Of a DNA stretch of 64,000 bases, positions 17,145-22,189 are shown in pieces (positions within the stretch are counted from its first letter, which is position 1; every line of letters starts with the position of its first letter). Both the position numbers and the translations under genes were made by a program. The DNA is from Mycobacterium senriense (lineage in GTDB: Bacteria > Actinomycetota > Actinomycetes > Mycobacteriales > Mycobacteriaceae). The notes beneath the pieces are model-generated. The model saw nothing but the letters and a program-made list of their open reading frames with translations, was not told the DNA's origin and did not search any database. The stretch covers positions 496,001 through 560,000 of the forward strand of contig NZ_AP024828.1 of the NCBI RefSeq assembly GCF_019668465.1, read 5' to 3'.

Positions 17145-18167
17145 CTACCCGGCGACGAGATCGCGACGCTGGGTGAACTTGATGTCCAGGCTGCGCAGGT
17201 GGGTCTGCAGCCCGGCGTCCTGGACCGGGATCAGGTGGGCCGGCTCATCGGTCTCGTTGTAGTGCGCGTGCCACATGCCCGGCGGGGTGGTGAACGCGCA
17301 CCCGGCCCGCCAGTCCACCCGGGTGGGGTTGACGATGTCGCCGTGCTCGTCGAGGCGGGTGCCCAGCAGCGTGTAGCAGCCGGACTCCGGGGCATCGAGG
17401 ATGAGATCCAGCGCGACCGACTGGTGCCGGTGCGGACGCTGCACCTGGTTGGGCGGCAGCACACCGAACATGGCCCACAGCACGTGGGTGATGGTCAGCG
17501 TCTGCTCCTGGTTGGCGTTGGCCAGCAGCACGCTCACCCGGCTCTTGTCGTTGGCGCCCGGCCGCGACGCGATCTCCTCCAGCTTGGCCACCGCGTCGGC
17601 GCGGCGGAACTTGGTCGCCGCAAACCGCGGCCGCGTGGCCTCGGCGCCCAGGTAGTTCATCAGCGGCTCGTCGTGCACCCAGTACATGGCCGTGTCGGTG
17701 GCGGCGTAGAACACCGAGCGGCTGCCGGCGGGCAGCGTCACGAAGTCACCCTTCTCCCACGCGATCAGCCGGCCGTTGACCGCCGCGAAGCCCCGCCCAT
17801 AGAGCACGTAGTACAGCTGCGAGGTGGCGTTGGGGCTGGTGTCGACCTGCTCCCGGGCGCGGATGCTGACGAAGTTGGCCAGCAGCGCCGGGCTGGTCGC
17901 CGCGCCGGTGTCGATGCCCAGTTCCCCGCACAGATCCAGCGGGATCACCCCGGTCGGCGCGCCGAGGTAGAGCTCGGGATCGAACCGCCGCAGCGGAACC
18001 GGCGGGACGTGCCCGGATCCGATCGGGTTGGCCGCCTTGGAGTACTCGAAGTATTCGGCCTGCTGCGCCCACTCCTCGAAACGGCCCTCGAACCCGTACT
18101 CCGCCACGTTGATCATCGGTGCCGGGATGGTCGGGTCCAGGCTCGGCATCACCAACTGCTGGGGCAT
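17145..18167 (-). CDS. Bicupin ring-cleaving dioxygenase-like protein (gentisate dioxygenase type)
   Basis: The 340-residue protein has two cupin-like halves. The second holds the metal-binding histidines His246 and His248 (RPHRHQ) and His300/His302 (PPGMWHAH); the first (about 100-170) lacks such a set, apart from a lone histidine. This arrangement resembles gentisate or hydroxynaphthoate 1,2-dioxygenases, which open aromatic rings with Fe(II), although their active iron site is often in the first cupin, so the substrate call is weak. ATG at 18167 is fixed by a strong AAGGAGG eight bases upstream; the longer frame to 18242 is not needed. It is divergent from a GntR regulator, its probable controller. 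Confidence 0.75.
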
Positions 18168-18194
18168 CTGCAGCCTCCTTGATTCAAAGTTTCT

Positions 18195-18204
18195 TCGTAT
18201 CTGA
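18195..18204 (+). promoter_or_regulatory. Putative GntR operator half-site 1
   Basis: TCGTATCTGA, 28 bases upstream of the cupin start; the first of three related decamers in the divergent region. Confidence 0.4.
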
Positions 18205-18216
18205 ATAGTATTTATC

Positions 18217-18226
18217 TTGTATCTCA
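18217..18226 (+). promoter_or_regulatory. Putative GntR operator half-site 2
   Basis: TTGTATCTCA, the same orientation as site 1 and 22 bases (about two helical turns) from it. Confidence 0.4.
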
Positions 18227-18285
18227 GTGGCCGTAGTGTCAATCCCCGCAGCTAGGACGGCACGGTGTACGGTCGTGACCACGCT

Positions 18286-18320: not shown

Positions 18321-18986
18321 TTGGCAGCAAAGCACCCCCGGCCGGGCACGGCCAAGGACCGCGCGCTGGACTACGTCAAGACGCAGGTCCTCACCGGCGA
18401 ATTCCCCGGCGGGGAGCTGATCAGCGAGGGCGACGTCGCCACCGCGCTGGGGATGTCGCGCACCCCGGTGCGCGAGGCTTTCCTGCGACTGGAGGCCGAG
18501 GGGCTGCTGCGGCTCTACCCCCAGCGCGGCGCGCTGGTGGTCCCGGTCTCGCCCGACGAGGTGCGGGCGGTGATGGAGGCCCGGCTGGTGCTGGAGCAGT
18601 TCGCGGCCGGCAAGGTGGTCGGGCGCGGACCCGCCGTCTGCGCGATGGTCTTCGAGCGGCAGTCGGGCGAACTGCGGCGGCAGCGCGACGCCGCGGCCGC
18701 GGCCGACTGGCGGGAGTTCCTGGAATCCGACCGCGCCTTCCACGCGATCACCCTCGAAGAATCGGGCAACGCCATCCTGTCGAACTTGTACTCGACGCTG
18801 CGCGACCGCCAGATGCGGATGATCGGGGAATCGGCGCTGCGCGAGCCCGACCGGGTGGCCACGATCATGGCGGAGCATCGGGGCATCGCGGAAGCCTTGC
18901 GCGACGGCGACTTACCGCGCGCACTGCGGGCGGTGCAGACCCACTTGGCCAGCACGGTGCGGGCAATGGGCCTTTCCGTGTTCTAG
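18321..18986 (+). CDS. GntR-family regulator with FCD ligand domain
   Basis: The 221-residue protein has an N-terminal winged helix (GDVATALGMSRTPVREAFLRLEAEGLL, the GntR signature) and a C-terminal FCD domain. The FCD metal/ligand residues are visible as DRAFH, EHRG and QTHLAS. FCD regulators usually bind carboxylic acids or aromatic breakdown products. TTG at 18321 with AGAAGAGAG upstream was chosen; TTG at 18285 in the same frame is possible but would overlap the third operator-like site. It is divergent from the cupin gene and its stop overlaps that of the convergent deacetylase. Confidence 0.88.
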   Translation: MAAKHPRPGTAKDRALDYVKTQVLTGEFPGGELISEGDVATALGMSRTPVREAFLRLEAEGLLRLYPQRGALVVPVSPDEVRAVMEARLVLEQFAAGKVVGRGPAVCAMVFERQSGELRRQRDAAAAADWREFLESDRAFHAITLEESGNAILSNLYSTLRDRQMRMIGESALREPDRVATIMAEHRGIAEALRDGDLPRALRAVQTHLASTVRAMGLSVF

Positions 18987-19642
18987 GACTCGGGTCGCAG
19001 GTGATCGACGGGTGTCCGCATCCGACCGCGGACGATCGGCACACAATCCTCGGGGAGTTGTGTGGTGACCTCCACACCGGAGTGGATGAGTTCGTCGAGA
19101 AATCTCGGTAGCTGCTCCATCGCACCGGTGGGCAGGTCGTGCAGTACCACCACGGTGTGCTGATGGCTGCGGGTATCGGCGAGCGCTCGGCTCACCCATC
19201 CGCCGGGGTCCGCCCAGTCGCGCGGGACGCTGTTCCAGAGTACGCAGGTGTACTTCTCCGCGATGAGGTGATCGACCGCCGCCCGATTCAGGCAGCGCCG
19301 TTCGAGCACGCCCTGCGTTCCCCACGGTCGAAAGTACCGATCGACATCGGCGAAATCTTCCAAAAGCTTTTGTGTGCCGCTGATTTCGTGAATGCCTTCC
19401 GCCGGGGACAGCTCGCCCAGAGGTCGACCATGGGTGAACGAATGATTGCCGATCCGATGCCCCTCACGCACAGCACGCACCATCAGCTCACGTCCCTGCT
19501 GCGAGCAAACCCTCTCCCCGACGACGAAGAAGATGGCGGACACCCGCCGCTGAGCCAGCGCATCGAGAACCCGATCAGTGACACCAGAGGTCGGGCCGTT
19601 GTCAAAGGTCAAAGTGATCTTCGGCGACACATTCTCATGCAT
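18983..19642 (-). CDS. NodB-fold polysaccharide deacetylase with altered motif 1
   Basis: The 219-residue protein is a single NodB domain without signal peptide. Motif 1 reads TFDNGP (12-17): the first Asp (catalytic base) is present, but the second Asp, a metal ligand in the usual TFDDGP, is Asn. Motif 2 HSFTH (67-71) keeps both metal histidines, motif 3 is RPWG (105-108), motif 4 RDW (141-143) and motif 5 LHD (167-169). The family removes acetyl groups from chitin, peptidoglycan or small amides. It is divergent from the TetR gene and may share its operator. A TFDNGP subgroup exists in other bacteria as I recall, so activity is possible. Confidence 0.85.
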   Translation of the reverse strand: MHENVSPKITLTFDNGPTSGVTDRVLDALAQRRVSAIFFVVGERVCSQQGRELMVRAVREGHRIGNHSFTHGRPLGELSPAEGIHEISGTQKLLEDFADVDRYFRPWGTQGVLERRCLNRAAVDHLIAEKYTCVLWNSVPRDWADPGGWVSRALADTRSHQHTVVVLHDLPTGAMEQLPRFLDELIHSGVEVTTQLPEDCVPIVRGRMRTPVDHLRPES

Positions 19643-19669: not shown

Positions 19670-19699
19670 TTGCCTGACTGATCGATCAGACAGTATGTT
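19670..19699 (+). promoter_or_regulatory. Promoter of the TetR/hydrolase-methyltransferase operon
   Basis: TTGCCT (19670-19675) and TATGTT (19694-19699) stand 18 bases apart, and the TetR ATG at 19731 follows with a GAAGAGGTGAG ribosome site. The spacer is filled by the palindrome annotated below. Confidence 0.5.
19674..19693. promoter_or_regulatory. Putative TetR operator palindrome
   Basis: CTGACTGATCGATCAGACAG contains the perfect 12-base palindrome CTGATCGATCAG and three more symmetric bases on each side. It occupies the spacer between the -35 and -10 boxes, the usual place for TetR autorepression, in the 88-base gap between the divergent deacetylase and TetR genes. Confidence 0.6.
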
Positions 19700-19730: not shown

Positions 19731-20369
19731 ATGTTGACCACAACAGTTCCGGAGACTCAGCACGACGCTGGTTCGACGGCTGGCGACGCCCGGCAGCGAA
19801 TCCTGCAGACAACGGTGCGGTGCTTCGGCACGTACGGCTACGAGAAATCCTCGATGAAGCTCATCTCGAAAGAGGCCGGCGTTTCGCAGACGCTACTGCA
19901 CTATCACTTCGAGACGAAGGAAAAGCTCTTCCGGGCGGCGATCGACGACATGGCCGAGACCATGTTCTCCACCGCCTCGGCCCGAATGGCGGACTCGGTG
20001 TCCGTGGGTGACAGCCTCACCAAGGCGGGCGATCTGGTCTACACCCTGTTCATCGACAACCTCGACGCCGTCACCTTCATGGTCGAGTTCGCCGCAGCGG
20101 CCAATCACAACGAGTTCTTGCGGGCCGCGTACGTCGACTATCGCGATACCCAGCGCGGGCGGATCGCCGAGCTGCTGCGCACGATCATTGGTGACGATGC
20201 GCCGCCGGGTTTGATAGACGAGACGGTGCATCTCTTCGAAATCGTGCTGCTGGGCATGTCGATGCAGCGTCCGTTCATCTCCGACACTGCACGCTTCCGC
20301 AGCGATTTCGACGCTTTCGCGCGCATGATCGGCACCCACATCACCGAAGGATTGGATCGGAGGCACTGA
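19731..20369 (+). CDS. TetR-family transcriptional regulator
   Basis: The 212-residue protein has a TetR N-terminal domain: ARQRILQTTVRCFGTYGYEKSS, then the helix-turn-helix ISKEAGVSQTLLHYHFETKEKLF at about 45-67. The C-terminal half is a helical ligand domain with no recognised subfamily. Its TGA shares one base with the ATG of the fusion gene, so the two are translated together. With the palindrome between its promoter boxes it probably represses itself, the fusion and perhaps the divergent deacetylase. Confidence 0.92.
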   Translation: MLTTTVPETQHDAGSTAGDARQRILQTTVRCFGTYGYEKSSMKLISKEAGVSQTLLHYHFETKEKLFRAAIDDMAETMFSTASARMADSVSVGDSLTKAGDLVYTLFIDNLDAVTFMVEFAAAANHNEFLRAAYVDYRDTQRGRIAELLRTIIGDDAPPGLIDETVHLFEIVLLGMSMQRPFISDTARFRSDFDAFARMIGTHITEGLDRRH

Positions 20370-22189
20370 TGACCCCGGAGACCATGGCGGCGGTGCCACC
20401 GATGGCCGAAGATGCGGTGACCGGATCCGGTGCCAGACGTATCTTCGTGCGCCGCTACGACAACGACAATGCCGACTATGTCTTGGTGCTGGTGCATGGG
20501 ACCGCCGGGAACAGCGAAGGCTATGACAAGTTCGCCGAGCACATGCGCCGCCATTATCGAGCGGCGGTCTATTCGTTCGACCTCACCGGGCACGGTCGCA
20601 CCGAAGGCAAGGCGGGGGTGTTCAGCTTCGAAGCCTTCCTCGAAGACACCAGGGCAGTAACCGATTACGCCGCACGACGCACTTCGCTGCCCGTCGTCGT
20701 GCACGGCGCGAGCCAGGGCGGCGAAGTCGCGTTCCACGCACTCGACGCGTGTCCGGCCGTGGTGGCCGGTGTGTGCATGAACATCCTGTTGAACCACGAG
20801 GCGCCAATGAGCTTGGCGATCCGGTTGTTTCAGTCGCGCCCAGCGCAGTACGCGGCAGGCAAGATCGGTGATCGGCTGCCGATCCCGCTGCGGCGGTTCA
20901 TTGACTTCAAAGCCGCCTACCAAGAAGACCCCGGATTGCTGGAGACGAAGAAAAAGGACCCGCTGTACGTCTGGTCGTATGGGTTCAAGAGTTACCACTC
21001 GGTGTTCAACTATGTCCCGTCACTGCCCGCCGCCGCCAATACCAAACCTGTTCTGATCACCTGCGGCGAGCACGATGAAATCGTCGGCGCCGAGCACTGC
21101 CGGGCATGCTTCGAACGGATCGGCGGGACCAAAGACTTTTTCATGATGCCCGGTGGCGGTCATCAGCTCATGTTGTTCGACAGAAACGTCTACAGTCGAG
21201 TCATCGACTCGTGGATTCGGGAGCGGGTGCTCGGCAAGGCCCAATCATGGGAAGCGGCAATCGAACCCGAAGAGCGAAGCTACTTCGAGTTTCTCGAACG
21301 TGAACGCGCCAACGACGTCGCTGGTGAGCCCGAGTACCGCTATTCGATGATCGATCGCGCACTGATGCGGCTCTGCAACGGCACCATCGAGCGCGGGGTC
21401 CGTTACTTCTCCAACGCCGACGTCAGCGCACAGTGGCGCTTCACCGCCGAACTGGTCAGCCAAATCGACTACACCGCATGGGATTTCATACGCGATTACC
21501 TGCCGTCTACGCATACTCAACGCCCGCAGATGGCGGTGGTCGGCTGCGGCAGCGGCGGGGCGATCGCGGGATTGCTGGAACGATATCCGGAGCTGTGCGA
21601 ATGGGACATCGTCGGCGTCGACGTCGACTACAAAGCGATCGGCGCAGCCCGAAAGCGCTTCGCCGACCAGCCCGAGGTGAACTTTATTGTCGGTGACGCA
21701 CGAGAAGCGGATGTGTTGGCGGACAGTCGGTTCGATGTTGTCTACCTGCACGGAGTTCTCGACCATTGCACCGAGCATCGCCGCCTGTTCGACAGCGTAT
21801 TACGCGCGCTGAAGCCGGGCGGCCGGATGTTCTATGTCACACCGGACCGCAACCTGTTCACCTGGCTTTGCTTCGTCGCGATCGGGCCGCTGTACGTGTT
21901 CGGTCTGCACAAGACCAACCACGACTTTCGGCGATTCCCCCGCCCAGCGGAGTTGAATCGCCTGCTTCAGGACGCCGGTTTCGAGCTGCTGCCCAGACGA
22001 GGCCGGCCGACCGCACCGGCCATGATCGGCCTCGAGTACAAGTCCGGGATGAATCCGTTCCCGGTCAGGAGGTCGGTGCGCACTCGCATCCTCGACGACA
22101 AGATCTTCAAGCACACCAACCCCAGGTGGTGGTTGCGCGACGGCTTCATCGGCGAGTATGTGGGAGCGGCCCAAAAACCGAGTCGATGA
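20369..22189 (+). CDS. Fused alpha/beta hydrolase - SAM-dependent methyltransferase
   Basis: One 606-residue protein holds two enzymes. Residues 35-290 form a monoacylglycerol-lipase-like alpha/beta hydrolase: HGTAG (43-47), DLTGHG (71-76), nucleophile GASQGG with Ser115, acid Asp236 in GEHD, His265 in GGGH. Residues 330-600 form a class I methyltransferase: SAM loop VVGCGSGGAIAG (390-401), acidic strand end VGVDVD (415-420), GDAREAD (442-448), and ALKPGGRMFYVTPDR (480-494). Both active sites look intact. A hydrophobic FTWLCFVAIGPLYVFGL patch (497-513) suggests a lipid or membrane-associated substrate. The region is less GC-rich than its neighbours, suggesting later acquisition. The natural substrate is unknown to me. 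Confidence 0.9.
   Translation: MTPETMAAVPPMAEDAVTGSGARRIFVRRYDNDNADYVLVLVHGTAGNSEGYDKFAEHMRRHYRAAVYSFDLTGHGRTEGKAGVFSFEAFLEDTRAVTDYAARRTSLPVVVHGASQGGEVAFHALDACPAVVAGVCMNILLNHEAPMSLAIRLFQSRPAQYAAGKIGDRLPIPLRRFIDFKAAYQEDPGLLETKKKDPLYVWSYGFKSYHSVFNYVPSLPAAANTKPVLITCGEHDEIVGAEHCRACFERIGGTKDFFMMPGGGHQLMLFDRNVYSRVIDSWIRERVLGKAQSWEAAIEPEERSYFEFLERERANDVAGEPEYRYSMIDRALMRLCNGTIERGVRYFSNADVSAQWRFTAELVSQIDYTAWDFIRDYLPSTHTQRPQMAVVGCGSGGAIAGLLERYPELCEWDIVGVDVDYKAIGAARKRFADQPEVNFIVGDAREADVLADSRFDVVYLHGVLDHCTEHRRLFDSVLRALKPGGRMFYVTPDRNLFTWLCFVAIGPLYVFGLHKTNHDFRRFPRPAELNRLLQDAGFELLPRRGRPTAPAMIGLEYKSGMNPFPVRRSVRTRILDDKIFKHTNPRWWLRDGFIGEYVGAAQKPSR

Follow-up and report, generated by a model that had tools for sequence, protein, structure and literature searches.

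A scattered family of hydrolase-methyltransferase fusion proteins in Mycobacterium and beyond, with a putative TetR operator

An alpha/beta hydrolase joined to a class I methyltransferase in one polypeptide has a described precedent, the BioG-BioC fusion of Bacteroides fragilis, which, according to the part of the source available to us, was expressed and can stand in for both activities in E. coli (PMC3494674). Among single enzymes resembling one half or the other, the membrane-binding insertion of the O-methyltransferase UbiG has been described functionally (PMC4796655, in part), and the carboxyl O-methyltransferases CysG and BelI are reported in the accessible portion of their source to hold a metal-binding His-His-Asp active site (PMC11408123). 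Here we describe a fusion of this general layout, encoded in a 64,000-nucleotide stretch of the Mycobacterium senriense genome (NZ_AP024828.1, positions 496,001 to 560,000; hereafter the window, whose own numbering we use). We found that the fusion represents a scattered, uncharacterised family and not an accident.

The fusion gene (20369..22189, forward strand) begins with ATG and encodes 606 residues with zero internal stops. Pfam recognises both halves, Hydrolase_4 at residues 35-268 (E-value 1.7e-25) and Methyltransf_11 at residues 391-488 (3.3e-18), which bears out the original prediction, made from the letters alone, that a single 606-residue frame unites a hydrolase and a methyltransferase without a frameshift. 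Structure prediction, suggested there for the interface, gave a confident full-length model (pLDDT 93, pTM 0.90). The proposed catalytic triad Ser115/Asp236/His265 is invariant in 63/63 aligned sequences, and the proposed S-adenosylmethionine (SAM) loop at residues 390-401 of a class I methyltransferase stands equally well, with G394, G396, D418 and D443 of the SAM site invariant in the same 63. The separation of about 40 residues between the two parts has to be amended: it is not a bare linker, as residues 296-385 are mostly helices in the model and include invariant positions. We assign the conserved helical bridge, defined from the model secondary structure as residues 300-385 (21266..21523, forward strand; invariant L332/N337/G338/F347), to the methyltransferase half.

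Both halves of the fusion are under purifying selection. The ratio of nonsynonymous to synonymous substitution rates (dN/dS), measured against the window copy in 14 mycobacterial loci (L019 and L020 left out), was 0.094-0.161 for the hydrolase (residues 6-295) and 0.23-0.35 for the methyltransferase (residues 351-604), in 14/14 comparisons each; the comparison with Smaragdicoccus was near saturation (dS >0.97). Because relatives from independent genomes keep the same length and order, and because both halves are under selection, we exclude that sequencing or assembly has joined two genes.

The hydrolase half (residues 1-288; 20369..21232, forward strand; triad S115/D236/H265) resembles monoacylglycerol lipase (MGL) and shows an alpha/beta hydrolase fold with an MGL-type cap. 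Its HG oxyanion motif (H43 G44) is found in 62/63 aligned sequences, the remaining sequence having a gap there. Cinnamoyl/chlorogenic esterases appear among its matches, and the BioG family is absent from the 10 Pfam matches of the fusion at E<=0.001, where Hydrolase_4 stands instead.

The methyltransferase half (residues 386-606; 21524..22186, forward strand) is UbiG-like: UbiG is its nearest solved relative by sequence, being the best match of the family profile in the Protein Data Bank (PDB; 4kdc, 7.5e-17). By alignment to 4kdc, residues 492-528 (21842..21952, forward strand) correspond to the region of the UbiG membrane-binding insertion, and the half is accordingly predicted to carry an insertion of this type. 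Further invariant residues are H461, D465, H466, H470, H518 and D519. Modelled alone from 11 sequences, this half gave a weak model (pLDDT 63.8) whose structural matches were a broad tie among class I methyltransferases, and our subtype claims are not based on them; in the full-length structural search, hydrolases filled the match list. A role in anti-phage defence was rejected, since the PADLOC mad2 match spans only the SAM core (389-499) and is read as generic methyltransferase similarity.

A protein search, which scored only the 7993 candidates sharing most words, returned 116 homologues of the fusion, and precomputed Pfam lists place domains of both halves in 109 of them. The seven exceptions comprise four methyltransferase-only pieces on contigs of <=1,970 bp (P0092, P0109, P0110, P0111) and three metagenomic sequences. 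Two of the latter (P0097 and P0099, on contigs of 17 and 80 kb) lose the frame within the methyltransferase part, through either natural loss or sequencing error, and P0024, on a 5.6-kb contig, has a flavoprotein start followed by the fusion from about residue 146, which reflects either rearrangement or misassembly.

Searching with the methyltransferase half yielded 34 matches, 17 close (43-81% identity) and 17 remote (<=38% identity over <=66% of the query). The close ones are apparently fragments, fusion pieces or shifted frames, 13 of the 17 lying on contigs no longer than 3.3 kb; of the four on longer contigs, P0093 carries a Pfam domain of hydrolase type, P0104 begins inside the hydrolase half, P0122 is labelled 'partial' by its source and P0124 retains only a minor part of the methyltransferase core. 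Among the 34 matches, with some short fragments unread, none was a convincing stand-alone version of this methyltransferase.

Named carriers include M. nebraskense, M. scrofulaceum, M. parascrofulaceum, Smaragdicoccus niigatensis, a Nocardiaceae metagenome-assembled genome (MAG) and a deltaproteobacterial MAG. Twenty loci were recovered, 19 of which match over both halves and one (L028) over residues 67-287 only. The copy of S. niigatensis, a soil actinomycete, is 57% identical to that of the window, and the homologues P0025-P0088 make up a mostly metagenomic clade at 57-65% identity, with long contigs among its members. The fusion was found in 14/297 sampled genomes of the genus, 2/397 of the order and 1/227 of the phylum, the last being the window's own genome; within the family, 6/401 genomes were positive at E<=1e-60, one of the six having a free-standing hydrolase. 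These samples overlap (the own genome and others recur), so the fractions are not additive, and the 1e-60 cut-off omitted the free-standing hydrolases of the genomes G649 and G246, which were located via gene context. Transport as phage or plasmid cargo was rejected: tblastn of viral contigs gave 28 pattern matches, none confirmed, and none of 33 matching plasmid records reached 80% query coverage, with each of the 15 listed covering one fusion half or part of it. A narrow open-licence PMC search found no paper on the fusion family. The earlier statement that no member is characterised therefore holds for the family in the literature searched, but not for the general layout, which is characterised in B. 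fragilis BioG-BioC.

Upstream of the fusion lies a gene for a TetR-family regulator of 212 residues (19731..20369, forward strand; TetR_N PF00440, 6.9e-14), whose stop codon TGA (20367-20369) shares one base, 20369, with the fusion start ATG (20369-20371), exactly as predicted. Two further elements had been overlooked. The first is a divergent gene for a NodB/CE4-type deacetylase-like protein of 219 residues (18983..19642, reverse strand; PF01522, 2.7e-19), which adjoins TetR in 17/17 mycobacterial loci compared, plus L037; in L009, L010, L014, L017 and L021 it was located by tblastn. The second is a 20-bp near-perfect palindrome, CTGACTGATCGATCAGACAG (19674..19693), between the divergent start codons, a probable TetR operator. 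It is kept at 0-2 mismatches in 18/18 mycobacterial fusion loci (window, L009-L024, L037), and matches CTGACTGATCGATCAGRCAG exactly in L037 and in 13 of the other 17. Nowhere else in the 5.83-Mb genome does a site match within two mismatches, and at <=3 mismatches shuffled versions of the window yielded none. At <=4 mismatches it was not found in the Smaragdicoccus, Nocardiaceae, deltaproteobacterial, G628, G649, G246 or Rhodococcus loci.

Based on the conserved adjacency of TetR and deacetylase and on the conserved, genome-unique palindrome, the three genes probably form a small local regulon in fusion-bearing Mycobacterium, with the deacetylase transcribed one way and TetR and the fusion the other. 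The predicted operator also supports the idea that the adjacent TetR controls the fusion. As regards the deacetylase-like protein, its motif reads TFDNGP, not TFDDGP, in the window, and TFDNGP or SFDNGP occurs in 21 of 22 rows including the window, the 22nd ending before the motif; this change may reflect a modified metal site or else another class of substrate.

The trio of TetR, fusion and deacetylase occupies two chromosomal positions. At position A (7 loci: window, L009-L013, L015) it follows a GntR regulator in 6/7 loci, and the adenosine deaminase gene (add) comes next in all five whose contig is long enough, L012 and L013 stopping short; L013 is rearranged: it lacks GntR, keeps just 30 residues of the cupin gene and has its neighbours W_15087 and W_16084 placed differently. 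At position B (10 loci: L014, L016-L024) a GlcD-like FAD dehydrogenase and a kinase gene are present in 10/10 loci each and a PlsC-type acyltransferase in 8/10 (not in L017 and L019); a search of the 64-kb window at E<=1e-6 recovered none of these genes. In one genome with the fusion at position B (G001), position A holds a 94-residue open reading frame in about 430 bp and no trio, with different DNA between GntR and add. The two types separate in the fusion tree (98% of 200 bootstrap trees, branch support 61/96) as well as in the deacetylase tree (95%, branch support 93/94), and therefore one relocation suffices.

The original prediction had also described the region as less GC-rich than its neighbours. 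This is the case: TetR (61.0%), the fusion (61.6%) and the deacetylase (62.3%) are the three lowest among the 55 frames called in a window of 68.7% GC, a few others approaching them (62.8%, 63.3%, 63.8%). GC at third codon positions is 0.77 in the fusion versus 0.87-0.94 in most neighbours, cdd (0.79) and several short frames being equally low, and the low GC of the trio fades in several position-B species (up to 69%). The two chromosomal positions of the trio and its AT-richness in the window make acquisition and relocation likely. The acquired look noted before is thus probable, given also the patchy distribution, but we saw only weak, chance-like repeats as possible mobile-element ends flanking the trio. 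According to PMC6172269, Mycobacterium has frequently received genes from Smaragdicoccus, and PF08242 is a domain prone to transfer; the available portion of that text does not mention the fusion gene. Next to position A, a cupin protein weakly resembling gentisate 1,2-dioxygenase and 5-aminosalicylate dioxygenase is encoded at 17145-18242 of the window, divergent from GntR; in the stretches examined, the cupin-GntR pair occurs together without the trio in G001, G017, G010, G006 and G007.

Related hydrolases lacking the methyltransferase occur in similar surroundings. In G628, G649 and G246, a free-standing hydrolase (31-32% identical to the hydrolase half of the fusion) and an FAA-hydrolase are accompanied by a homologous deacetylase and a different TetR; the TetR of G628 resembles that of the window at just 31%, over part of its length. 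On a Rhodococcus fascians plasmid (pA21d2), the hydrolase adjoins a TetR gene, with no deacetylase in the stretch examined. Smaragdicoccus and the Nocardiaceae MAG have relatives of the TetR (71-72%) and FAA-hydrolase (70%) of the G628/G649/G246 type just before the fusion, a PlsC-type acyltransferase after it and a deacetylase 4 to 10 kb away. Given the shared TetR and FAA-hydrolase, the fusion in these two appears to stand where the other genomes have the free-standing hydrolase. Across the family, the deacetylase was detected in 12/401 genomes (E<=1e-40): all 5 with the fusion, 3 with the free-standing hydrolase and 4 with neither, the last judged on the stretch examined, which in two cases was a contig of 3.2 or 6.8 kb. 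Our PMC search, narrow and open-licence as above, found no paper on a deacetylase with FAA-hydrolase and TetR in Rhodococcus.

Some of these loci hold other genes that we record separately. G628 has two deacetylase-TetR pairs about 4 kb apart (L048 7009-8270 and 11413-12683), with a DAPG-hydrolase-like (PhlG) gene nearby. On pA21d2, CBASS-like genes for a SAVED protein, a ThiF-family adenylyltransferase and a DncV-like nucleotidyltransferase (L065 14563-18451) lie a few kb from the free-standing hydrolase. A free-standing hydrolase followed by a VOC-family protein is found on plasmids of R. fascians (L065 8636-10194) and Rhizorhabdus wittichii (L066 7974-9536).

Considering all the above results, the components suggest a two-reaction scheme at a membrane, cleavage of an ester and then O-methylation, under substrate-induced derepression. 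TetR would bind the palindrome and repress both divergent transcripts until a lipophilic inducer arrives; the MGL-type half would then deacylate an ester of lipophilic character, and the UbiG-type half, held on the membrane via its insertion, would O-methylate the freed product at a phenolic hydroxyl or a carboxylate. The NodB-like protein may act on the same compound, which could be a cell lipid or an imported aromatic molecule. We favour, tentatively, sequential action of the two halves on one lipophilic ester, with the compound class left undecided. Somewhat doubtful is the fuller proposal of an obligate membrane-docking family that couples an MGL-type lipase to a UbiG-type O-methyltransferase, the two working in this order on one lipophilic ester, and that a mobile, self-repressing trio carries through mycobacteria. 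The two-step lipid-tailoring role offered in the original prediction remains an inference. A lipid substrate has indirect support from the MGL-type hydrolase, the UbiG-type insertion predicted by alignment and the PlsC-type acyltransferase neighbours, one of which directly follows the fusion in Smaragdicoccus.

The rival that survives best, although we consider it unlikely, is catabolism or detoxification of an imported aromatic ester, in which the hydrolase would open a phenolic or enol ester and the methyltransferase cap the phenol, with the FAA-hydrolase and the FAD hydroxylase performing other steps. Smaragdicoccus, the Nocardiaceae MAG, G628, G649 and G246 have an FAA-hydrolase beside the fusion or the free-standing hydrolase, which points to this reading; likewise, the Nocardiaceae MAG and G246, a relative from the genus Mycobacterium, have an aromatic ring hydroxylase (PRK06184-like, FAD) no more than about 8 kb away. 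The cinnamoyl/chlorogenic esterases among the hydrolase matches fit such chemistry, as does the methylation of phenols by UbiG described in the part of PMC4796655 consulted. However, neither the FAA-hydrolase nor the aromatic hydroxylase gene was found in the 18 mycobacterial fusion loci examined, several of which are short.

We regard it as improbable that a single half carries out catalysis in vivo while the other serves as membrane anchor, ligand sensor or scaffold. The related hydrolase in a similar gene setting does without a methyltransferase, so methylation would be dispensable there, and the hydrolase half evolves more slowly; but the catalytic-site residues of both halves are invariant throughout the 63 sequences. 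Very improbable is a protect/deprotect pair like BioG-BioC, in which a methyl ester is made and then removed by the hydrolase after intervening steps: this layout is proven in B. fragilis BioGC, but the fusion scores 25 bits against the curated BioC model (TIGR02072, cut-off 184.95) and 31.5 bits against that of BioH (cut-off 206.95), M. smegmatis has a separate BioC (Tam) and three BioH enzymes according to the accessible part of PMC9302846, and the distribution is as rare as 14 of 297 genomes in the genus.

With a putative operator that is unique in the genome, one could search directly for the inducer and, by way of it, for the substrate. A lipid substrate would point to a modified lipid not yet recognised in non-tuberculous mycobacteria and soil actinomycetes, an aromatic one to a detoxification step performed by a single enzyme.

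Among the closest known systems, the M. tuberculosis monoacylglycerol lipase Rv0183 (PDB 6eic, 7ozm), 22-23% identical to the hydrolase, is a stand-alone enzyme with no methyltransferase, whereas here the hydrolase is fused. Closer are the free-standing hydrolases of G628, G649, G246 and R. fascians pA21d2, homologous at 31-34% and with TetR alongside, three of the four loci also having the deacetylase and FAA-hydrolase; unlike the fusion, they lack the methyltransferase half. On the other side, the SAM core and the membrane-insertion region of the UbiG/Coq3 O-methyltransferase (4kdc) align with those of the fusion, and the E-H of the UbiG stretch EMLEHV corresponds to D465-H466, inside HGxxDHxxxH; yet the fusion scores 60.2 bits with the curated UbiG model (TIGR01983), under its cut-off of 102.95, and has a hydrolase attached. 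The narrow PMC search found no paper on a metal in Coq3/UbiG. CysG and BelI (PDB 9fcl, 9fce) have the class I core in common with the methyltransferase half, and their His-His-Asp site recalls its invariant His/Asp set; they are stand-alone enzymes acting on isopropylmalate-type acids. BioG-BioC, lastly, has the same layout of an alpha/beta hydrolase and a class I methyltransferase in one chain, both functional as far as its source was accessible, but belongs to other families on both sides and to the biotin pathway, with about ten extra residues between the parts. The pairing of domains is thus already known, and the families differ on both sides here. The fusion would be another independent case of a hydrolase and a methyltransferase in one chain, with the twist that its methyltransferase was not found outside the fusion.
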